Source: Oscillospiraceae bacterium (GTDB taxonomy: Bacteria > Bacillota > Clostridia > Oscillospirales > Oscillospiraceae). From it: a stretch of DNA of 50,768 nucleotides. Every line of letters starts with the position of its first letter. The first letter of the stretch is position 1. Positions 4,263 to 18,757 of the stretch are shown here, in pieces. The notes under the pieces are model-generated. The model was not told where the DNA came from. It worked only from the letters and a program-made list of their open reading frames with translations, and did no database searches. Made by a program: the position numbers and the translations under genes. Where the stretch lies: assembly GCA_022799035.1 (NCBI GenBank), contig JAAWNQ010000014.1:1-50768 (forward strand), given 5' to 3'.

Positions 4263-5111
4263 TCAAAGCCGCCGCCGTTGAAACAGCAGGGCCAGGCCAA
4301 AGCCCGCCGCCAGATAGAGGGTGATGGAGGCCCCCGCCGAGGAGCCGATGTAGTAGGAGGTCATCAGCCCCGCCACCCCGCAGACCACCGCCCCCAAAAC
4401 GGAGAGGAGATGGTACTGCCGGCAGTTTCGGGCCAGGTTTCTGGCCCCCGCGGCGGGGAGGACCAGCAAAGAGTTGATGACCAGCAGTCCCACCCAGGTC
4501 ATGGACAGGGTGACCACCACGGCGATGGCGGCATGGAGCACCGCCTCCTGCCAGAAGACCCGGATCCCCCGGCTGTCTGCCAGAGCGGGGTGGAGGGAGG
4601 AGAGAAGAAGGGTGTTGTAAGCGCAGACCCACAGCACCAGAATGACCCCCAGGATGGCGGCCAGAAGGGCGGTCTTCCGGGGCTCCACGCTTAAAATGTC
4701 CCCGATAAGCAGGGAGTTGAACTTGGTGAAGGACCCTCCGTCCAGGGTGGCGATAAAGATGCCCAGGGCCACCGCTGTGGAGGAGAAGACCCCGATGACC
4801 GTGTCGCTTGCCAGGGAGGAGCGGCGGCGGACCCAGGTAAAGAGGAGGGAGAAGATCAGGGCGAAGGCCACCGCGGCCCACAGGGGCTGTGAAAGGCTGC
4901 ACAGCGCCCCGATGGCCACACCGGTGAAGGCCGAGTGGCCCAGAGCGTCGGAAAAGAAGGACATCCGGCTCTGCACCACCATGGTGGACAAAAGCCCGAA
5001 GAGGGGGGAGATGACCAGGATAGCCAGCAGGGCGTTCTTCATAAAGAACATCTCCCCCGGCTGGGCCCACTCAAAGGGGAGCAGGTCTACCAGGGAATAC
5101 CACAGGGACAT
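4263..5111 (-). CDS. znuB: Zinc ABC transporter permease, ZnuB-like
   Basis: 282 residues with eight or so hydrophobic segments, of the ABC-3 family of Zn/Mn permeases. The conserved block around residues 45-70 (MSFFSDALGHSAFTGVAIG) and the later SLLIGDIL and WVGLLVINSLLVLPAA segments are typical. It forms the membrane channel for the metal delivered by the lipoprotein at 5879-6823 and is powered by the ATPase at 5112-5882. Its start directly abuts the stop of the ATPase gene, so translation is coupled. Metal specificity (zinc rather than manganese) comes from the His-rich loop of the binding protein, not from this permease. Confidence 0.9.
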   Translation of the reverse strand: MSLWYSLVDLLPFEWAQPGEMFFMKNALLAILVISPLFGLLSTMVVQSRMSFFSDALGHSAFTGVAIGALCSLSQPLWAAVAFALIFSLLFTWVRRRSSLASDTVIGVFSSTAVALGIFIATLDGGSFTKFNSLLIGDILSVEPRKTALLAAILGVILVLWVCAYNTLLLSSLHPALADSRGIRVFWQEAVLHAAIAVVVTLSMTWVGLLVINSLLVLPAAGARNLARNCRQYHLLSVLGAVVCGVAGLMTSYYIGSSAGASITLYLAAGFGLALLFQRRRL

Positions 5112-5882
5112 TCACTCCACCCCCTTTCCCACCCGCAGGTGGAATACGTCCTGGAATTCCCGGCTTCCCAGCACCTGGGCGGGGGAGCCCAGCTTGAGAA
5201 GGGTGTTTTTCAGCAGGATCACCTTGTCCGCGTACTGCTCCAGGGTGGCAAAGTCGTGGGTGGACAGGAGGATGGAGAGGTCGTAGGTCCGCCGCAGCTC
5301 GTCCAGCATGTCCAAAAGCTGCTTCTCCCCCTCCACGTCCACCCCGGACAGGGGCTCGTCCAGGATGAGGATGTGGGGCAGGGGCTCCAGGGCCAGGGCC
5401 ATGAGGACCCGCTGGAGCTCTCCCCCCGAGAGGGAGCCGATCCGCTTGTCCAAAAGCCCCTGGGCGTGGGTCCGGGCAAGGCAGTCCCCCACCCGCTCCC
5501 GGAGCTTTTGGGGGATGGGGAGGAACACAGGCCAGTCGGAGATGGCGGCGGCGAAGAAGTCCAGAACGCTCACCGGGTCCCCCCGGTCAAAGGCGGGAGA
5601 CTGGGGCACATAGCCGATGACGGGCCGCCGCTTCTCCCCGTCGGACCGGCGGAACTGGATGGATCCCGAGTGGGGGAGCTGGCCCAGGATGGTCTTGAAA
5701 AGGGTGGATTTTCCCGCCCCGTTGGGGCCGATGAGGGCGGCGATCTCCCCGCAGTGAAGGTGGAGGGAGACCCCGTGGAGCAGCTCGTCAGAGCCCACGG
5801 TGACCCCCACGTCCCGAAGCTCCAGACAGCAAAGCCCCTCGCAGCCGTGACCGGCGCAGTTGTCGTGTTTGTGTACGCTCAT
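5112..5882 (-). CDS. znuC: Zinc ABC transporter ATP-binding protein, ZnuC-like
   Basis: 256 residues. Walker A GPNGAGKST at about 52-60, the signature LSGGELQR near 150, Walker B ILILDEP and the H-loop STHD are all present, so it should be an active ATPase. The first 20 residues are rich in His and Cys (HKHDNCAGHGCEGLCC), which is seen in some Firmicute zinc ATPases and may sense or bind metal; that role is inference. It overlaps the end of the binding-protein gene by four bases and abuts the permease gene, consistent with a compact znuACB operon. Confidence 0.92.
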   Translation of the reverse strand: MSVHKHDNCAGHGCEGLCCLELRDVGVTVGSDELLHGVSLHLHCGEIAALIGPNGAGKSTLFKTILGQLPHSGSIQFRRSDGEKRRPVIGYVPQSPAFDRGDPVSVLDFFAAAISDWPVFLPIPQKLRERVGDCLARTHAQGLLDKRIGSLSGGELQRVLMALALEPLPHILILDEPLSGVDVEGEKQLLDMLDELRRTYDLSILLSTHDFATLEQYADKVILLKNTLLKLGSPAQVLGSREFQDVFHLRVGKGVE

Positions 5883-6823
5883 AGGAGAGCCTCCAAAATG
5901 GTATTCAGGTTTGCGGTCATGGCGTCCAGATAGGGGTCAATGCCTGTCCCCTCACCGGACATGAGCATATCCAGCTCGTAGATCTCACACCCCGTCTCCC
6001 GGGCGATGACCTCCGCCGTGGCCCGGGAGCCATTTTTCTCTACGAAAATAGCGGGGATGTCATACTCATGGATAAGGGCCACGATCTCCTTGATCTCAGC
6101 GGCCGAGGCGGTGGAGCCTTCCTCCTCCTCAATGGCCTTGAGAAGCTCCAGGCCAAAGGCGTGGGCAAAATACTGGAACCCGTCGTGGAAGGTGATGAAC
6201 CGGGTGGTGGAGCAGAGGGCCTCCAGGGGAAGGGCACTTCCCGTGGCGTTAACGAGCATGAGCTGGGCCATGTCCAGGTCCTGGACGGTCCCCCCCATGC
6301 GGTCATAGAGGGAGATATACCTCTGCCCATAGGTATCCCCATGGGCAGGGTCCAGGGCGGAGAGCCCGTCGGCGATGGCCCTGACCATCCCCGCCGCCCG
6401 CCGGGGATCCATCCAATAGTGGGGATCCTGCTCCACTGCGTGGTCGTGGCCCTCATGTCCGTGGTGTTCCAGGGCAGGGAGCAGGTCCATCCCCTCCGAG
6501 CAGTCGATGACCGCCGCGTCGGAGGCGGCCAGGGCGTCGGCCATAAACTCCTCCAGCCCCGCCCCGTTCAGGATGATCACGTCGGCCCCCTCGATGGCCT
6601 TCATGTTCTTCACCGTCAAGGTGTAGTCGTGAAGGCAGGAGGTCTGGGCGTTCACCAGCAGCTCCACCTCCACGCCCTCTATCCCCTGGGTGAGGGCTGT
6701 GGTGAACAGGTACACCGGGTAGGTGGCAGCTAAAATATGTAATTTTTCCTCCTCTGCCGGGGCCTGGGCGCAGCCGGTCAGCAAAACCGCCGCCAGCAGC
6801 AGGGGGAGAAGCCGTTTTCTCAT
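5879..6823 (-). CDS. znuA: Zinc-binding lipoprotein, ZnuA-like
   Basis: 314 residues counted from ATG 6823, which follows AAAGGAGG; the in-frame start at 6862 has no such site. The N terminus is a lipoprotein signal with lipobox LLTGC. The mature part is a cluster 9 (TroA/ZnuA) metal receptor. It carries the His-rich acidic loop (HHGHEGHDH) between the two lobes that marks zinc rather than manganese receptors. Metal ligands expected in the family are visible as LHDYTLTV, DPHYWMDP, TFHDGFQYFA and the late ELDML segment. It captures zinc at the outer face of the membrane for the downstream ATPase and permease. Confidence 0.92.
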   Translation of the reverse strand: MRKRLLPLLLAAVLLTGCAQAPAEEEKLHILAATYPVYLFTTALTQGIEGVEVELLVNAQTSCLHDYTLTVKNMKAIEGADVIILNGAGLEEFMADALAASDAAVIDCSEGMDLLPALEHHGHEGHDHAVEQDPHYWMDPRRAAGMVRAIADGLSALDPAHGDTYGQRYISLYDRMGGTVQDLDMAQLMLVNATGSALPLEALCSTTRFITFHDGFQYFAHAFGLELLKAIEEEEGSTASAAEIKEIVALIHEYDIPAIFVEKNGSRATAEVIARETGCEIYELDMLMSGEGTGIDPYLDAMTANLNTILEALL

Positions 6824-6850
6824 AGGGACCCTCCTTTGAATGGGGAGGCT

Positions 6851-6885
6851 ATTATACCCCATTTCTTATGATTTGTAAAATGGTC
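6851..6885 (-). promoter_or_regulatory. Promoter of the zinc uptake operon with possible operator
   Basis: On the minus strand TTTACA (6874-6879) and TATAAT (6851-6856) are 17 bases apart, 28 bases before the lipoprotein start. Inverted hexamers CCATTT/AAATGG flank the spacer, and the half-site-like AAATCATAA resembles the start of Gram-positive Zur boxes. The promoter is well supported; the operator is only suggestive. Confidence 0.7.
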
Positions 6886-6941: not shown

Positions 6942-6982
6942 AAAACGGGGAGCGCCGACCTTCCAGCGGCGCTCCCCGTTTT
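6942..6982 (-). terminator. Terminator of the pyrophosphatase-like gene
   Basis: A 16-bp perfect stem (6942-6957 and 6967-6982) lies just beyond the stop of the minus-strand gene at 6990. It ends in TTTT on the minus strand and also has a T-rich tract on the plus strand. Confidence 0.85.
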
Positions 6983-6989
6983 CTCTTTT

Positions 6990-9071
6990 TTATCCCAGCA
7001 GTCCGGGGAGGTTAAAAACCTGAATGGCGGCCCAGCAGGCCAGAGCCAGAGAGAGGGCCGCCTTGCAAAAGGCGGTGAGGGCGGGGCCCGCCACCGTCCG
7101 GAGGGGGGACAGGGCCCGTTCCGCCTGAAGGGTGGCCCGGTGGCAGTCGGAGCCCCGGCCGCCCCGCTTGCCGCTCTCCACATAGCGGCGGGCGCCGCTG
7201 AGGACTCCGGCGCTGAGGGAGAAGGCGGGGTCCAGCAGGACCGCCAGGAGAAGGAGACTGCCCAGAAAGCCCAGAAGCCCCTGGGGCCCAAGGAGGAGAC
7301 CCGCCCCCAGGGGGGACAGGACCGCCAGCAGGAAGGGGGGCAGGGAGCACAGGAGAGAGCGGGTGCCGCAGCGCTTGACACAGGCGGCATAGTCGGGGTC
7401 CTCAATGCCCTCCAGAAGACCTTCGGAGGCCCGGAACTGCTGCCGAGCCTGCTCCGCTGTGGAGTGGGCGGTCCGGCGAAGCCCCCGGAGAAGAAGCCCC
7501 AGAAACAGAAGGACGGTCAGTCCCCCCAGAAGAAGCCCGCAGAGGAGGGGGAGATCAGGCTGGGGGAGACCCTGTCCCTCCCGCCGGAGAAGGAGGACAA
7601 GGCCGGCTGGCAGAGAAAGGCCGGTGAGGGCGGTGAGGGAGGAATCCAGGCATTTTCCGCCGTTGGAGGCGGCGGCGCCCAGGGCGGCCAGACTGTCCGC
7701 CCTGCGGCGGGGGACCTCCCCGTCGTCGATGAGGGAGAGGGTGTGGGCCGCGTTATCCCCCACAGGGCCGCAGAGGGCGGCGGCCAGGGAGAGCCCCATA
7801 GTGGAGGCCATTCCAAGCCCGGCCAGGGCGGCGCCATAGAGGCCCCTGGAGGGATCGGCGATCCCTCCCAGAGTGAAAAAGGCGGCGGCCAGGGCTCCGG
7901 CGGCCAGGAGACCGGGAAGGAGGGAGGCGGTAAAGCCGGTCCCCAGGCCCCCCGCCACGGTGGGGGCGGCGCCGGCGTCGGCGGTTTGGGCCAGGGAGCG
8001 GGCGGGCTTATAGGTGTCGGCGGTAAAATACTCCCCCAGCAGGCCGGACAGGAGTCCGGCGGCCAGTCCCGCCGTCACCGCCCAGCAGAGGTCCCAGCTT
8101 CCGGTGAGAAAGTAGGACAGGGGGAAGGAGACCACGGCGATGAGCAGGGAGGACAGAAGCTGGGAAAGCCGCAGGGACCAGGGCAGAGAGTAACGGTCCC
8201 CCCGCTCCCGGGCGGGGACGGCGAAGGAGGCTAAGATGGCGCAGAGGACTCCGGCGGAGGCGGTGACCAGGGGGAAGAGTATGGCGTTCCAGCCCAGGTC
8301 GTGGGGGGAAAAGGCGGCGGCGCCCAGGGCTAAGGAGGCCAGGAGGGCGCTTTCAAAGCCCCAGTGGAGCCCGGCGGCGGTGTTGGCGGCGGCCCCCACC
8401 CCGTGACCGATCCGGAGGGCGATGGCGGCGGGGTTCTGGGGGGAGTCGGGGGGGAGGCCCATCTCCCGGTCTATCATCTCCCCGGCCAGACCGGCGGAGC
8501 CGGCGAAAAGGTTTCCCATGTGGAACAGCAGGGTCATCAGGCCGCTGCCCACCCCCAGGGGGAGCAGGGTGAGGGCCATCTCCTCCGGACCCTGTTGGAG
8601 GGAGTATTTCAGAAAGAAGGACCAGCCGGTGACGTGGAGCAGGGCCAGCCCCACAGCCAGAAAGCTCACCGCCGAGCCGGCGCAGAGGGCAGCATTGAAG
8701 CCCTTGTCCAGCCGGTCTCCAGCCGCGTCGGCAGCCCGGGGGCCGGCCACGGCGGTGAGCTTGGCCCCCGCGACGCCCACAAAGAGACTGCACAGGCTCC
8801 CCGACAGGAAGGCGGCTATGGTGAGAGGCTCCAGGACCCTTCCATAGTACAGCCCTGTGAAAAGACCCAGGACCAGAAGGAGAAAGCCCCCGGACAGGAG
8901 AAGTTGCCACTTGAGATAGGCGTTGGTCCCCTTGCGCAGGGCGGCGGCCAGACCCTGAGCGGGGCTGCCGCCTTCGGGCAGGGGAAGGACCCGGCCCAGT
9001 TGGACCAAGGCGAAGAGGAAAGCCAGAGCGCCCCCCGCGAAGCCGATCCAAAATAGATGTTCAATCAACAA
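6990..9071 (-). CDS. Membrane pyrophosphatase family protein lacking catalytic aspartates
   Basis: About 693 residues with some 15 hydrophobic segments, the length and plan of H+/Na+-translocating pyrophosphatases. Family landmarks remain: NPAAIA followed by a GFES-ending segment, CGPVGDNAA, ADSLAALG, SAGVLSGARRYVE and GRGSDCHRAT. Most acidic residues that bind Mg-pyrophosphate are gone. The usual NPAxIADNVGDNVGD reads NPAAIALRIGHGVGA. The usual TDALDxxGNTT reads ADSLAALGAAA. The usual GDTVGDPFKDTSGP reads QAERALSPLRTVAGP. It is therefore unlikely to hydrolyse pyrophosphate. No ATG start exists; AAAGGAG fits TTG 9071 better than TTG 9080. It has its own terminator and is not clearly co-transcribed with a neighbour. 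The reading frame is intact, which argues for a retained non-catalytic role rather than decay. Confidence 0.82.
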   Translation of the reverse strand: MLIEHLFWIGFAGGALAFLFALVQLGRVLPLPEGGSPAQGLAAALRKGTNAYLKWQLLLSGGFLLLVLGLFTGLYYGRVLEPLTIAAFLSGSLCSLFVGVAGAKLTAVAGPRAADAAGDRLDKGFNAALCAGSAVSFLAVGLALLHVTGWSFFLKYSLQQGPEEMALTLLPLGVGSGLMTLLFHMGNLFAGSAGLAGEMIDREMGLPPDSPQNPAAIALRIGHGVGAAANTAAGLHWGFESALLASLALGAAAFSPHDLGWNAILFPLVTASAGVLCAILASFAVPARERGDRYSLPWSLRLSQLLSSLLIAVVSFPLSYFLTGSWDLCWAVTAGLAAGLLSGLLGEYFTADTYKPARSLAQTADAGAAPTVAGGLGTGFTASLLPGLLAAGALAAAFFTLGGIADPSRGLYGAALAGLGMASTMGLSLAAALCGPVGDNAAHTLSLIDDGEVPRRRADSLAALGAAASNGGKCLDSSLTALTGLSLPAGLVLLLRREGQGLPQPDLPLLCGLLLGGLTVLLFLGLLLRGLRRTAHSTAEQARQQFRASEGLLEGIEDPDYAACVKRCGTRSLLCSLPPFLLAVLSPLGAGLLLGPQGLLGFLGSLLLLAVLLDPAFSLSAGVLSGARRYVESGKRGGRGSDCHRATLQAERALSPLRTVAGPALTAFCKAALSLALACWAAIQVFNLPGLLG

Positions 9072-9182
9072 TCCACCCAACTCCTTTGCCTCCCCAAAAT
9101 GGAGACCGGGATACAGATATACCCAATTCTACCAATATTCGCCCCTTTTTTCAAGCACCACTTTTTTCGGAGGCTTCCCCAC

Positions 9183-9211: not shown

Positions 9212-9252
9212 CAGGGGAGAAGCCCTGAAAAAAATAAGGAGAGGTGACCAGT

Positions 9253-10023
9253 ATGCAGGAGCATGAACTTCAGTTTCACATCAAATGTAAAAAGGGGGAT
9301 GTGGGCCGGTATTGTATTCTCCCCGGGGATCCCGGCCGGGTGGAGAAGATCGCCGCCTATCTGGACGACGCCCACAAGGTCCAGCAGAACCGGGAGTATG
9401 TGGTATGGACCGGTTCCCTGCTGGGGGAGAAGGTGAGCGTCTGCTCCACGGGGATCGGCGGCCCCTCCGCCTCCATCGCCATGGAGGAGCTGGCGGCCAT
9501 CGGGGCGGACACCTTCGTCCGGGTGGGGACCTGCGGGGGCATCAACCTGAAGGTCCAGTCCGACGACGTGGTCATCGCCACCGGCGCGGTCCGCCACGAG
9601 GGGACCAGCCGGGAGTACGCCCCCATCGAGTTCCCCGCCGTCAGCGACTATGAGGTCCAGCAGGCCCTGGTCCAGGCGGCCAAGAACCTGGGCAAGAGCT
9701 GGCATGCCGGGGTGGTCCAGTGTAAGGACTCCTTCTACGGCCAGCACTCTCCCGCCCGGATGCCGGTGGCCCAGGAGCTGCTCTACAAGTGGGAGGCATG
9801 GAAGCGGCTGGGGGTGCTGGCCTCCGAGATGGAGAGCGCCGCCCTGTTCTGCTGCGCCGCCTCCCTGGGGGTTCGGGCCGGGTCCTGCTTCCATGTGATC
9901 TGGAACCAGGAGCGGGAGGCCGCGGGACTGGACCAGAAGGAGAGCCACGACCTGCAGGCCGCCATCCAGGTGGGCGTGGAGGCGGTGAAGGTGCTCATTC
10001 AGGAGGACCGAAGGAAGGGCTGA
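9253..10023 (+). CDS. udp: Uridine phosphorylase
   Basis: About 256 residues of the NP-I nucleoside phosphorylase family. Motifs seen: LPGDPGRV (phosphate-binding Arg), [23 protein letters not shown], and SEMESAALF, which binds the ribose. The enzyme splits uridine with phosphate to uracil and ribose-1-phosphate in pyrimidine salvage. ATG 9253 is preferred to GTG 9244 since GAGGTG then serves as ribosome-binding site. Two small genes follow on the same strand with short gaps (32 and 14 bases), so they are probably co-transcribed. The cytidine deaminase at 46002-46397 would supply uridine to this step. Specificity for uridine over purine nucleosides is inferred from overall motif pattern. Confidence 0.88.
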
Positions 10024-14820: not shown

Positions 14821-15429
14821 ATGACATTCTGGGATGAGATCGCCGGGGTCTACGATTTGGCAGAGTGGACCAACAAAAAAGCCAATGCTGAGACAATTCG
14901 CCAAGTGAGGGAGCTGGTGCCCCAGTGGTCCTCGGTGCTGGACTGCGCCGCGGGGACAGGGGAATTCTCCCTGGCCGCGGCGGAGCGGGCGGGGGCGGTG
15001 ATGTGCACCGACCTGTCCCAGGCCATGCTGGACAAGGCGGAGGCCAAGGCCGGGCGGCGGGGGATCACCAATATCTCCTTTCTGGTGCGGGATATGAATG
15101 CCCTGCCCGACGGGGATGGGACCTACGACGTGGTCATCGCCGCCAACGTGCTCCACCTGCTGCCCCATCCCGAGGCGGCCCTGGGGGAGCTGTGGCGGGT
15201 CACCGTCCCCGGCGGCAGGCTCATCCTGCCCACCTACCTGCAGGGGGAGGCCACCCCCTTTGCCCGGCTGCTCATCGGACTCTATCAAAAAATGGGGTTT
15301 CGGTATCAGAAAAGATTTACCCTGACCACCTACCGAAAGTTCCTGCGGGAACAGGGTCTGCCCGCCCGGGTGACCCGCGTTCCCGGTCAGGTCCCGGTGG
15401 GGCTGGCGGTGTGTGAGAAGCCTTTGTGA
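14821..15429 (+). CDS. Class I SAM-dependent methyltransferase
   Basis: 202 residues of the UbiE/Methyltransf_11 type. SAM-binding motif I is VLDCAAGTGEFSLAAA, the acidic end of strand 2 is MCTDLS, and motif II-like DVVIAANVLHLLPHPEAAL follows. The start abuts the HMA gene stop (three bases apart) and the stop overlaps the upstream reading of the ATPase gene, so it belongs to the metal operon. The substrate is not evident. A role in modifying a metal-binding small molecule or lipid is possible, but nothing in the sequence shows it. It lacks the cysteine triad of arsenite methyltransferases. Confidence 0.8.
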   Translation: MTFWDEIAGVYDLAEWTNKKANAETIRQVRELVPQWSSVLDCAAGTGEFSLAAAERAGAVMCTDLSQAMLDKAEAKAGRRGITNISFLVRDMNALPDGDGTYDVVIAANVLHLLPHPEAALGELWRVTVPGGRLILPTYLQGEATPFARLLIGLYQKMGFRYQKRFTLTTYRKFLREQGLPARVTRVPGQVPVGLAVCEKPL

Positions 15430-15485
15430 ATGTACCGCACGCCGGGGGGCTGTGCCCGCCCACTTTACCTAAGGAGGAATGCTCT

Positions 15486-17333
15486 GTGACAAAAAAGCAA
15501 AAAAAGACCCTTGGCCGCATCGGCGCCGCCGGCGGACTGCTGGTACTGGCGGTGGTAGCGGCGCCCCGCCTGTCCGTCCCGGCTATCCTGCTGTTCCTTG
15601 TCCCCTATTTTATCATCGGGTGGGATATCCTCTGGAAGGCCCTGCGGAACATAAAGAACGGGCAGGTCTTTGACGAGAACTTTCTTATGGCCATCGCCAC
15701 GGTGGGGGCCCTGGCCATCGGGGAGTATCCCGAGGCGGTGTTTGTCATGCTCTTTTACCAGGTGGGGGAGCTGTTCCAGGCGGTGGCGGTGGGCAAGTCC
15801 CGGAAGTCTATCGCCGCCCTGATGGATATCCGTCCCGACAGCGCCAATGTGGAGCGGGAGGGACAGGTGGAGACGGTGGACCCCGAGGAGGTGGCGGTGG
15901 GGGAGATCATCCTCATCCGTCCCGGGGAGCGGGTGCCCATCGACGCTGTGGTGGTGGAGGGGAGCTCCACGCTGAACACCGCCGCCCTCACCGGGGAGTC
16001 CTTGCCCCGGGATGTGGGGGTGGGGGATGAGGTGATCTCGGGCTGCGTCAACCTGTCGGGGCTTATCCGGGCCAGGACCACCAAGGAGTTTGGAGATTCC
16101 ACCGTGGCTAAGATCCTGGATCTGGTGGAGAACTCCTCCACCAAGAAGGCGAAAACCGAGCAGTTCATCACCCGGTTTGCCCGGTGGTACACCCCGGCGG
16201 TGGTGGTGTCGGCCGTGCTGCTGGCGGTGCTGCCCCCCCTGCTGATAGACGGGAACTGGATGGGGTGGTTCCGGCAGGCCCTTATCTTCCTGGTGATCTC
16301 TTGTCCCTGCGCGCTGGTGATCTCGGTGCCCCTCACCTTCTTCGGGGGCATCGGGGGCTGCTCCAGGGCGGGTATTCTGGTAAAGGGCAGCAACTATCTG
16401 GAGGCCCTGGCCCGGGCGGAGATCGTGGTCTTTGACAAGACCGGGACCCTGACAAAGGGAGTGTTCCAGGTGGCCTCGGTCCACCCGGAGGGGGAGAGTG
16501 AGAGGGGATTTTTGGAGCTGGCGGCCCTGGCGGAAAGCTATTCCAGCCACCCCATCGCCCGGTCCCTTCGGGAGGCATATAACGCCGAGATCGACGAAAG
16601 CCGGGTGACGGGGGTGGAGGAGCTGGCCGGCCGGGGGGTGAAGGCCCATGTGGACGGGCAAAGGGTCTATGTGGGAAACGATACCCTGATGGAGGAGGTG
16701 GGGGTGGCCTGGAAGCCCTGCCATAAGGCGGGGACCACCGTCCATGTGGCGACGGAGGGGGAGTATCTGGGGTATATCCTCATCTCCGACCAGGCCAAGC
16801 CGGACGCCAAGGCCGCTGTGGCCGGACTGAAGGCGGCGGGGGTAAAAAAGACGGTGATGCTCACCGGGGATGCCCGGGAGGTGGGCCGGGCCGTGGGGGA
16901 GGAGCTGGGGCTGGATGAGGTCCACGCCCAGCTTTTGCCGGCGGACAAGGTGGACCGGGTGGAGAAGCTGCTGGGGGAGAAAGGGGGAAGGGGGACCCTG
17001 TGCTTTGTGGGGGACGGGATCAACGACGCCCCCGTCCTCTCCCGGGCCGACGTGGGGGTGGCAATGGGGGCCCTGGGCTCTGACGCCGCCATCGAGGCCG
17101 CCGATGTGGTGCTGATGGACGACAAGCCCTCCAAGCTGACCCAGGCCATCGCCATGGCCCGGAGAACGGTGAGGATCGCCAACCAGAACATTGTCTTTGC
17201 CCTGGGGGTGAAGGGCCTGTTCCTGCTCCTGGGGATCCTGGGAAGGGCCAATATGTGGCAGGCCACCTTTGCCGATGTGGGGGTGAGCGTCATCGCCATC
17301 CTGAACGCCACAAGGGCGCTGAAGGAGAGATAA
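15486..17333 (+). CDS. P1B-type heavy-metal-translocating ATPase (Zn/Cd/Pb exporter)
   Basis: 615 residues from GTG 15486, which lies eight bases after AAGGAGG. The in-frame ATG 15426 overlaps the methyltransferase stop and lacks such a site. Motifs: CPC in transmembrane helix 6 (ISCPCALVIS, about 275), phosphorylated Asp in DKTGTLT (about 316), SSHPIA (about 354), and GDGINDAP (about 511), with TGES in the actuator domain. The late segment FADVGVSVIAILNATR fits the P1B-2 Zn/Cd/Pb group. No N-terminal HMA domain is encoded; a separate HMA protein sits two genes upstream. It exports metal ions at the cost of ATP and is controlled by the ArsR protein. Confidence 0.92.
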   Translation: MTKKQKKTLGRIGAAGGLLVLAVVAAPRLSVPAILLFLVPYFIIGWDILWKALRNIKNGQVFDENFLMAIATVGALAIGEYPEAVFVMLFYQVGELFQAVAVGKSRKSIAALMDIRPDSANVEREGQVETVDPEEVAVGEIILIRPGERVPIDAVVVEGSSTLNTAALTGESLPRDVGVGDEVISGCVNLSGLIRARTTKEFGDSTVAKILDLVENSSTKKAKTEQFITRFARWYTPAVVVSAVLLAVLPPLLIDGNWMGWFRQALIFLVISCPCALVISVPLTFFGGIGGCSRAGILVKGSNYLEALARAEIVVFDKTGTLTKGVFQVASVHPEGESERGFLELAALAESYSSHPIARSLREAYNAEIDESRVTGVEELAGRGVKAHVDGQRVYVGNDTLMEEVGVAWKPCHKAGTTVHVATEGEYLGYILISDQAKPDAKAAVAGLKAAGVKKTVMLTGDAREVGRAVGEELGLDEVHAQLLPADKVDRVEKLLGEKGGRGTLCFVGDGINDAPVLSRADVGVAMGALGSDAAIEAADVVLMDDKPSKLTQAIAMARRTVRIANQNIVFALGVKGLFLLLGILGRANMWQATFADVGVSVIAILNATRALKER

Positions 17334-17395: not shown

Positions 17396-18694
17396 TCATT
17401 TCCCGCTCCCGAGAACCACCGGCTTCTTGGGGGAGTTGGCGGTCCGGGCGGAGGTCTTGCCCTCGGGGGAGATCTCTCCGGCGGCCATCAGGGACCGCTT
17501 GGTGAGGGTGGGACCCACCAGCTCGTAGATCAGGACCGAGAACAGGATCACGTTCCGGACCATGGCCCCGTCCGCCAGGTTTTGGGCGGTGAGGGCCATG
17601 CCCAGGGCCACCCCGGCCTGGGGCAGGAGGGTGATGCCCAGGTGCCGCTTGATCTTGGCCTCGCAGCCGGTGGCGGCACAGCTCAGGTAGGCGCCGGCGA
17701 ATTTGCCCAGGGAGCGGAACAGGATGTAGACCAGGCCCACCAGCAGGACCAGGGGCTGGGAGAGAACGCCCAGGTCCAGCTCGGCGCCGGAGAGGACGAA
17801 AAATAGGATGCTCAGAGGGGCGGTCCAGTGGTCGATCCGCTCCATGATCTCCTGGGAGGTGCGGCAGATGTTGCAGAAGACGGTGCCGGCCATCATGCAG
17901 GTCAGAAGAAGGCTGAAGCCCACATGGATCTCTCCCACCTGGAACTCCGCCATGGAAAGGCCCACGGTGAGCAGGACGAAGCCGATGGAGAGGCTCCGGC
18001 GTTTGCTCCGGGAGTGGAAGAACTGCTCCATACAGTGGAGAAGGAAGCCGGCCAGTCCGCCCAGGAGGAGGGACAGGACGATCTCGATGACAGGCTCCAC
18101 CAGCACGCTGATCACGCTGATGGCGCCGCTCTCCATGGCGGCGGCCACCCCGTAGGAGGCGGAGAACAGCACCAGGCCCACCGCGTCGTCAATGGCCACC
18201 ACCATCAGAAGAAGGTGGGTCAGGGGACCGTCGGCCTTATACTGGCGGACCACCATGAGAGTGGCGGCGGGGGCGGTGGCGGCGGCGATGGCCCCCAGAG
18301 TGATGGCGGAGGGAAGGCTGATGAGGGCGGGGTTGAGATAGTGGAGGGCGATAAGGGCCCCGTCCACCACGGCGGTGGTGACCACCGCCTGGGCGATACC
18401 TACCACAATGACCCGGGAGCCCATGCTCCGGAGCTGTTCCAGCCGGAACTCATCCCCGATGGCAAAGGCGATGAAGCCCAGGGCGGTCTGGGAGATGATA
18501 TTGAAGCCGGCCACCTGCTGGGCGGAGTTGAAGCCCAGACCGGAAACCCCTAGGGCACCCAGGCAGAAGGGACCCAGGAGGAGGCCCGCGATCAGGTAGG
18601 CGGTGACGGCGGGGAGGCCCAGGCGTTTCGCGGGCCGGGAAAGGAGAAGGCCCCCCACCAGGGCTGTGGACAGACAGATCAGGATTTGTTCCAT
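17396..18694 (-). CDS. CPA2 family cation/proton antiporter
   Basis: 432 residues from ATG 18694 (GAGGTG upstream). There are about 12 hydrophobic segments in Na_H_Exchanger (Kef/NapA-like) order. The core includes AIAAATAPAATLMVVRQY and VVAIDDAVGLVLFS, where the Asp pair marks the ion-binding site of CPA2 exchangers. The C terminus is a short Ser/Thr/Lys-rich tail without the RCK/TrkA domain of KefB/C, so potassium-channel gating is unlikely. It exchanges Na+ or K+ for H+ across the membrane. It is transcribed from its own promoter at 18729-18757. Confidence 0.86.
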   Translation of the reverse strand: MEQILICLSTALVGGLLLSRPAKRLGLPAVTAYLIAGLLLGPFCLGALGVSGLGFNSAQQVAGFNIISQTALGFIAFAIGDEFRLEQLRSMGSRVIVVGIAQAVVTTAVVDGALIALHYLNPALISLPSAITLGAIAAATAPAATLMVVRQYKADGPLTHLLLMVVAIDDAVGLVLFSASYGVAAAMESGAISVISVLVEPVIEIVLSLLLGGLAGFLLHCMEQFFHSRSKRRSLSIGFVLLTVGLSMAEFQVGEIHVGFSLLLTCMMAGTVFCNICRTSQEIMERIDHWTAPLSILFFVLSGAELDLGVLSQPLVLLVGLVYILFRSLGKFAGAYLSCAATGCEAKIKRHLGITLLPQAGVALGMALTAQNLADGAMVRNVILFSVLIYELVGPTLTKRSLMAAGEISPEGKTSARTANSPKKPVVLGSGK

Positions 18695-18728
18695 GAAAAT
18701 ACACCTCGGTTTGAATTTGCCGCAGTGT

Positions 18729-18757
18729 AGGATAGCACTTTTTACTAAAAATCGCAA
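18729..18757 (-). promoter_or_regulatory. Promoter of the antiporter gene
   Basis: Minus-strand TTGCGA (18752-18757) and TATCCT (18729-18734) with a 17-base spacer, 35 bases before the antiporter start. Confidence 0.5.

Follow-up and report, generated by a model that had tools for sequence, protein, structure and literature searches.

The contig analyzed here, referred to throughout as the window (50,768 nucleotides), carries a full-length member of the membrane pyrophosphatase (mPPase) family whose hydrolytic center has largely been replaced. To judge from its residues, the protein is almost certainly unable to hydrolyze pyrophosphate (PPi) and very probably unable to pump. Our reading, which we consider probable on balance, is that the gene, an hppA orthologue, would have been inactivated in place and kept as a constrained membrane protein, perhaps one acting via its cytosolic face. 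The original prediction was of a full-length family protein of about 693 codons without a frameshift, retained as a pseudo-enzyme; the frame is as described, on the minus strand, and retention is strongly supported by the lost ligands, the intact ORF, purifying selection, a kept promoter and terminator, and a clade of relatives. This degenerate clade, sought in related genomes as the original prediction proposed, comprises four genomes (clade A). The gene and its surroundings are as follows.

6990..9071, minus strand: pseudo-mPPase gene (hppA orthologue); TTG start at 9071, 693 codons, stop codon at 6992-6990
9126..9154, minus strand: promoter-like site of the pseudo-mPPase gene, TTGAAA-17-TAGAAT, with TTGG preceding the second hexamer
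9081..9087, minus strand: ribosome-binding site (RBS) of the pseudo-mPPase gene, AAAGGAG (AAAGGRG in the four clade A genomes)
6942..6982, minus strand: intrinsic terminator hairpin and T-tract directly 3' of the stop codon, fold z -6.6
9244..10023, plus strand: udp (uridine phosphorylase), divergent neighbor and syntenic anchor of degenerate and residue-complete hppA
5879..6862, minus strand: znuA-type metal-binding protein of the ABC operon znuA-C-B (4263-6862), syntenic neighbor
5112..5882, minus strand: ABC ATPase znuC
4263..5111, minus strand: ABC-3 permease znuB

The open reading frame extends over 6990..9080 from its first TTG, and the second in-frame TTG, at 9071, agrees with the RBS and with the relatives and gives a product of 693 aa; the plus-strand reading of 6990..9071 is interrupted by stops. 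A terminator hairpin closes each of the four clade A genes and znuA has its own promoter-like site in the window (6879-6851), which disfavors a transcript shared with the metal ABC operon; znuACB and the pseudo-mPPase gene are probably separate transcription units. The znuA ORF (5879-6862, minus) already contains, at its 5' end, the -10 site of its promoter-like element (6856-6851), and the true znuA start is therefore probably an internal Met about 13 codons in. Near the hppA locus, the window also encodes a P-type ATPase (E1-E2; 15426-17333, plus) and a member of the Na+/H+ exchanger family (17396-18757, minus); genes related to the ATPase occur close to hppA in many of the sister genomes, and genes related to the exchanger in two.

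The window protein matches PF03030 (H_PPase) over profile positions 2-637 of 645 (E 3e-99; 333.8 bits, cut-off 29.7), and the solved mPPases match it as well (VrPPase, 4a01, 6e-59; TmPPase, 4av3, 8e-44; PaPPase, 8b37, 1e-41). All 12 matching NCBIfam pyrophosphatase models score under their cut-offs, as does every model for five other degenerate proteins (12-13 models each), while the residue-complete protein of genome G010 clears three of 13 (956 over 894, 910 over 546 and 808 over 652). Alignment confirmed the three altered blocks that had been read from the letters: GHGVGA for GDNVGD, RADSLAALG for the TDALDxxGN block (second Asp replaced by Ala) and AERALSPLRT for GDTVGDPFKDT. Mapping of the ligand residues against solved mPPases, a check that the original prediction had called for, revealed losses exceeding those first claimed. 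In VrPPase numbering (Vr residues 143-744 aligned), 144 columns are invariant among 34 residue-complete mPPase rows; the window protein retains three of the 17 hydrolytic-center invariants (E263, D507 and K541) versus 59 of the 124 others (Fisher p 0.02). The reference excludes partial or duplicate rows (L020, L023, L026, X_G013b and X_G011) and X_G034, which belongs to a different subfamily in which residue 263 is Arg and 609 is Asp. Which 17 residues count as catalytic, and how they are numbered in VrPPase, is our working assumption. It is consistent with the helix numbers in PMC5150537 and PMC10897367.

The 14 replacements are K250G, D253G, D257E, K261R, D279L, D283H, D287A, N534A, D691S, K694R, D723E, D727S, K730R and D731T, so that no acidic residue is found at most of the metal sites. 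The Asp, Asn and Lys residues of the mPPase Mg-PPi site are termed "completely conserved" in PMC10897367. In addition, in the helix numbering of PMC5150537 and PMC10897367, D6.43 is Ala and D16.39 is Thr; in mPPases these two residues hold the attacking water. The ion gate has fared similarly (R5.50 is His, D6.50 Gly, E6.53 Trp, S6.54 Gly, position 6.57 Ser and 16.46 Thr), with only K16.50 retained, and a pump using another driving force, one of the roles originally suggested, is unlikely given that most gate residues are lost too.

A PF03030 search of the 16 genomes of the genus separated full-length residue-complete genes (789-901 bits) from a degenerate class at 326-401 bits (the window, designated G000, and G008, G001, G014, G011 and G006), with a second gene of G012 at 111 bits. 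Seven of the 16 genomes thus have a degenerate copy, which is the only one seen in six of them and coexists with a residue-complete gene in G012; the other nine show only residue-complete hppA genes or pieces thereof. Clade A consists of the window and G008 (72% identity), G001 (58%) and G014 (54-55%), with nearly identical losses. Residue-complete hppA genes of the genus are mutually 82-96% identical (70-74% for a partial copy in G013), and the degenerate genes, in a listing without G012b, share 35-44% identity with those. In the rest of clade A, each protein retains 3/17 catalytic and 61-67/124 other invariants, and the figures are 3 and 67 for G011, 4 and 54 for G006, and 1 and 38 for G012b; Fisher p for this difference is 0.008-0.04 across degenerates, with the exception of G006 (0.19). 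Which catalytic residues survive varies: D16.39 in G008, D279 instead of K541 in G001 and G014, D727 in G011 and D6.43 in G012b. G012 (L069, C319, and L070, C342) has both the most degraded copy, with 1/17 catalytic residues and part of TM16 missing in the alignment, and a residue-complete mPPase of another subfamily, common to G013 (86%).

Further afield, a peptide-pattern scan of contigs from 84,980 species found at least 32 loci, a lower bound since the scan missed the clade A member G001. Identity exceeded 50% only at the G008 and G014 contigs; the remaining 30 loci are 30-33% identical, and the seven of these that were aligned are all residue-complete. With a clade A profile (A1) run on 400 sampled family genomes, a sample without G008, the three clade A genes outrank everything else among the matches listed, and no further clade A gene appears there above the residue-complete ones. 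The profile does not raise other degenerates (G006 falls below many residue-complete genes), and other degenerate kinds could hide. Fifteen genomes with low PF03030 scores were opened: 11 hold fragments of 60-319 profile positions (that of G122 with three stops), three hold full-length genes placed by score alone (591-610 bits), and one has a match under the cut-off. One genome of another genus, G121, rated 100% complete, has only a 5' hppA fragment (L102, C32:20847-21344, profile 2-156), apparently a loss by truncation, unlike the retained degenerate genes. In G023 (C9:23293-25364), hppA lies in two adjacent pieces in different frames, possibly owing to a frameshift or an assembly error.

The 16-helix mPPase fold is probably kept in the window protein. 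An AF2 model built with 35 alignment rows has pLDDT 87.7 and pTM 0.88, and Foldseek aligns it at TM 0.90 to the VrPPase (4a01) and TmPPase (5lzq) structures; the prediction draws on homology through the rows of residue-complete homologues, since the four clade A rows alone give a poor model (pLDDT 41). What has changed is the distribution of constraint. The pore-ring helices (5, 6, 11, 12, 15 and 16) are more often invariant than the outer ones in seven residue-complete genes of the genus (223/252 versus 240/356 positions) and in ten of the family (185/252 versus 152/356), with an odds ratio of 3.7 in both sets; the clade A counts are 92/252 versus 144/356 (odds ratio 0.85, p 0.35). Site conservation correlates at 0.54 between the genus and family residue-complete sets and at 0.17 between clade A and the family set, and the top helix for conservation in clade A is TM1 (62% invariant). 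These data bear on the possibility that the protein is an altered transporter or channel, with a pore that would let a different ion or solute run down its gradient or would be a gated leak, and with no PPi cycle. The predicted 16-TM fold would suit such a role, position 16.50 is basic in three of the four clade A proteins, and an acidic residue, E240, three positions along TM6 and next to position 6.57 of plant H+ pumps, is invariant in the clade. The loss of the former extra conservation of the pore ring counts mildly against it, as do the changes at R5.50, D6.50, E6.53 and S6.54 in the window protein, and we regard a transporter or channel as unlikely.

Selection was measured as pairwise maximum-likelihood dN/dS (omega) with a GY94-type model in our own code; saturated pairs (dS above 20) were left out, as were udp and znuA for G009-G010, where the ends are misframed. 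The constraint that the original prediction proposed to look for is present, at 0.11-0.15: omega is 0.127 for G000-G008 (dS 1.5), 0.148 for G001-G014 (dS 1.7) and 0.107 for G000-G001 (dS 3.1), and omega = 1 is rejected for the clade A pairs (2dlnL 264-290). Residue-complete hppA gives 0.011-0.045 (four pairs), and the neighbors give 0.03-0.05 (udp), 0.04-0.10 (znuC), 0.06-0.11 (znuB) and 0.11-0.14 (znuA); the pseudo-mPPase gene is therefore constrained about as much as its neighbor znuA. No stops or frameshifts were seen in the four clade A genes, the window's or those of its three relatives, at pairwise dS of 1.5-3, whereas neutral drift simulated at 0.75 substitutions per site introduced a mean of 5-12 stops depending on base composition, the fewest in 40 runs being 1 to 7.

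Expression signals are likewise kept. TTGAAA-17-TARAAT, with TTGG before the second hexamer, precedes all four clade A genes (window, G008, G001 and G014), and the identical pattern is found at the degenerate gene of G011 and the residue-complete one of G005; G003 and G007 have a close version, and G006, G009 and G010 differ. A hairpin lies directly 3' of the stop codon in all four clade A genes, with sequences that are all different and z scores of -6.6 to -6.9, and hairpins also follow the degenerate genes of G011 and G006. A decaying pseudogene, its ORF surviving by chance in GC-rich DNA, could account for an omega above that of residue-complete hppA and for a drifted composition: in all seven degenerates Leu rises to 14-23% from 10-12%, Ile plus Val is about halved, GC3 is mostly lower, and GC1 and GC2 are higher, a shift expected from weaker selection that counts against adaptation. 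Nevertheless, the omega values and the rejection of omega = 1, the absence of stops set against the simulation, and the kept promoter-like site, RBS and terminator make this very unlikely.

A protein that is still a pyrophosphatase or pump, with catalytic residues that have migrated, we consider highly improbable. In its favor, every clade A protein retains E263 and D507 and has Glu in place of D723, D16.39 survives in G008, and D279 survives in G001 and G014; against this, D6.43, D253, D691 and D727 are lost in all four and D16.39 in three of the four, D257 has become Glu in three proteins and Arg in the fourth, and a soluble pyrophosphatase is present in G000, G001 and G014. Eleven of the 16 genomes, the window's among them, have a soluble enzyme of family I and three others one of family II; none was found in G005 and G008 (77% and 67% complete). 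It would be permissive rather than the difference, because residue-complete genomes have it too.

The degenerate gene occupies the locus of its residue-complete counterpart. udp was detected in 14 genomes besides the window's, at 82-95% identity to its gene, and adjoins degenerate and residue-complete hppA alike, with a gap of some kb in G009 and G010; the znuA-C-B operon also lies near hppA in the four clade A genomes and in G011, G003, G004, G007, G009 and G010; G013, where hppA is at a contig end, is outside this comparison. Since both kinds share the same chromosomal setting, it is the orthologue itself that has changed, at its own locus. A recent paralogue or second copy is disfavored by this synteny and by the single copy, and an assembly artifact is unlikely, the same features being found in four genomes. 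A search of the window's genome (95% complete) for a second PF03030 gene found none besides the pseudo-mPPase gene, and no further PF03030 gene was found in G001, G014, G006, G008 or G011 (67-89% complete). mPPases are homodimers (PMC5150537), and G012 contains a residue-complete mPPase from a different subfamily; nevertheless, regulation of an active paralogue, as suggested earlier, or dimerization with one is unsupported and hardly credible, with six of the seven degenerate-bearing genomes showing no residue-complete copy.

How often the loss occurred depends on the tree. A marker tree of 4803 columns does not reject a single group of degenerate-bearing genomes (AU 0.11), nor clade A with G011 (0.14). 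From 11 checked alignments (5716 columns), clade A is united (100) with G011 beside it (85-89), while G006 groups with G012 at a distance; this tree rejects placing all degenerate-bearing genomes in a single group (AU 2e-5 with G015, 0.002 without) as well as clade A plus G006 and G012 (AU 4e-7 and 1e-4). The residue-complete genome G015 is unstable, falling with G005/G011 in one tree and with G006 (100) in the 5716-column tree. The hppA tree, computed without G012b, sets clade A, G006 and G011 apart from all residue-complete genes (100), and its conflict with the marker tree for G006 may reflect long-branch attraction or exchange of the degenerate allele. Clade A and the other degenerates share 23-32% of their new residues against a BLOSUM62 expectation of 8-9%, an excess that points to shared history or to biased membrane-protein composition in these sequences. 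Since a loss on this scale is scarcely reversible, the minimum is two losses, or a single loss combined with gene exchange, and it rises to three losses if G015 is truly sister to G006.

The cytosolic side of the protein has changed the sign of its charge. With membrane halves assigned from an outside N-terminus, which we take to be the orientation, 38 of the 42 conserved charges in clade A lie on the cytosolic half; this location is not new, since it holds for 50 of the 54 in the residue-complete family set, and only the sign has changed. The invariant cytosolic set has 22 basic, 14 acidic and two His residues in clade A (net charge +8), compared with 19 basic, 29 acidic and two His in the residue-complete family set (net charge -10). 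Fixed changes in clade A include K261R, N280R, D283H, K694R, K695R, K711R and D723E, and Lys makes up 0.10-0.24 of its basic residues versus 0.52-0.63 in residue-complete hppA of the genus. The neighbors and rpoB show no such shift (0.38-0.50), although as controls the neighbors are themselves under stronger selection, and drift toward GC-rich codons, instead of adaptation, may explain some of the Lys-to-Arg shift. The clade A pattern is not common to G011, G006 and G012, so the idea of an Arg site is one drawn from four genomes.

In the course of events proposed here, the gene is the hppA native to the genus, which its residues mark as having been a K+-dependent mPPase of the E6.53 type; it would have lost both PPi hydrolysis and ion pumping at its own locus and been kept as a constrained 16-helix membrane protein, the cell's PPi being left to the soluble family I pyrophosphatase. 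In the cytosolic vestibule, metal-binding acids would have given way to a net-basic, Arg/His-rich surface, with much of the charged rim and of the loop 5-6 lid sequence kept. Such a protein would bind an anionic ligand or a partner without metal. That it acts through this vestibule as a membrane sensor or scaffold is a tentative suggestion from the conserved residues. More speculatively worded for the genus as a whole, and put forward with similar reserve, its mPPases may have a second, catalysis-independent function that is masked while the pump works; where the pump became dispensable, with soluble pyrophosphatase present, the catalytic core could have been lost more than once in the orthologue at the same locus, the second function keeping the gene and its signals under selection, and in clade A the PPi vestibule could have become a metal-free, Arg-rich face for an anion or partner. 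A clade A omega several times that of residue-complete hppA counts against the proposed course of events.

In the literature searched, which excluded most subscription journals, we found no report of a naturally inactive mPPase, and we know of none. The window protein shares with mPPase/hppA (PF03030; TmPPase, VrPPase) an orthologous locus, homology along its whole length, a predicted fold of 16 helices and much of the cytosolic sequence of loops 5-6 and 15-16, together with a promoter-like site common to G005; it differs in the replacement of 14 of 17 hydrolytic-center and most gate residues, in scoring under the NCBIfam cut-offs and in having its constraint off the pore. By analogy, iRhoms and other membrane pseudoenzymes, as described in published abstracts, also show a membrane enzyme fold outliving its catalytic residues, but their fold is unrelated and iRhoms regulate other proteins, whereas here the loss is in the orthologue itself. 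A PF03030 match is consequently not the same as a pump: six of the 16 genomes of the genus with such a match show no residue-complete copy. With residue-complete sisters at the same locus, the genus offers a natural experiment, in which whatever activity the degenerate protein retains would be a candidate for a non-pumping function of an ancient ion pump.
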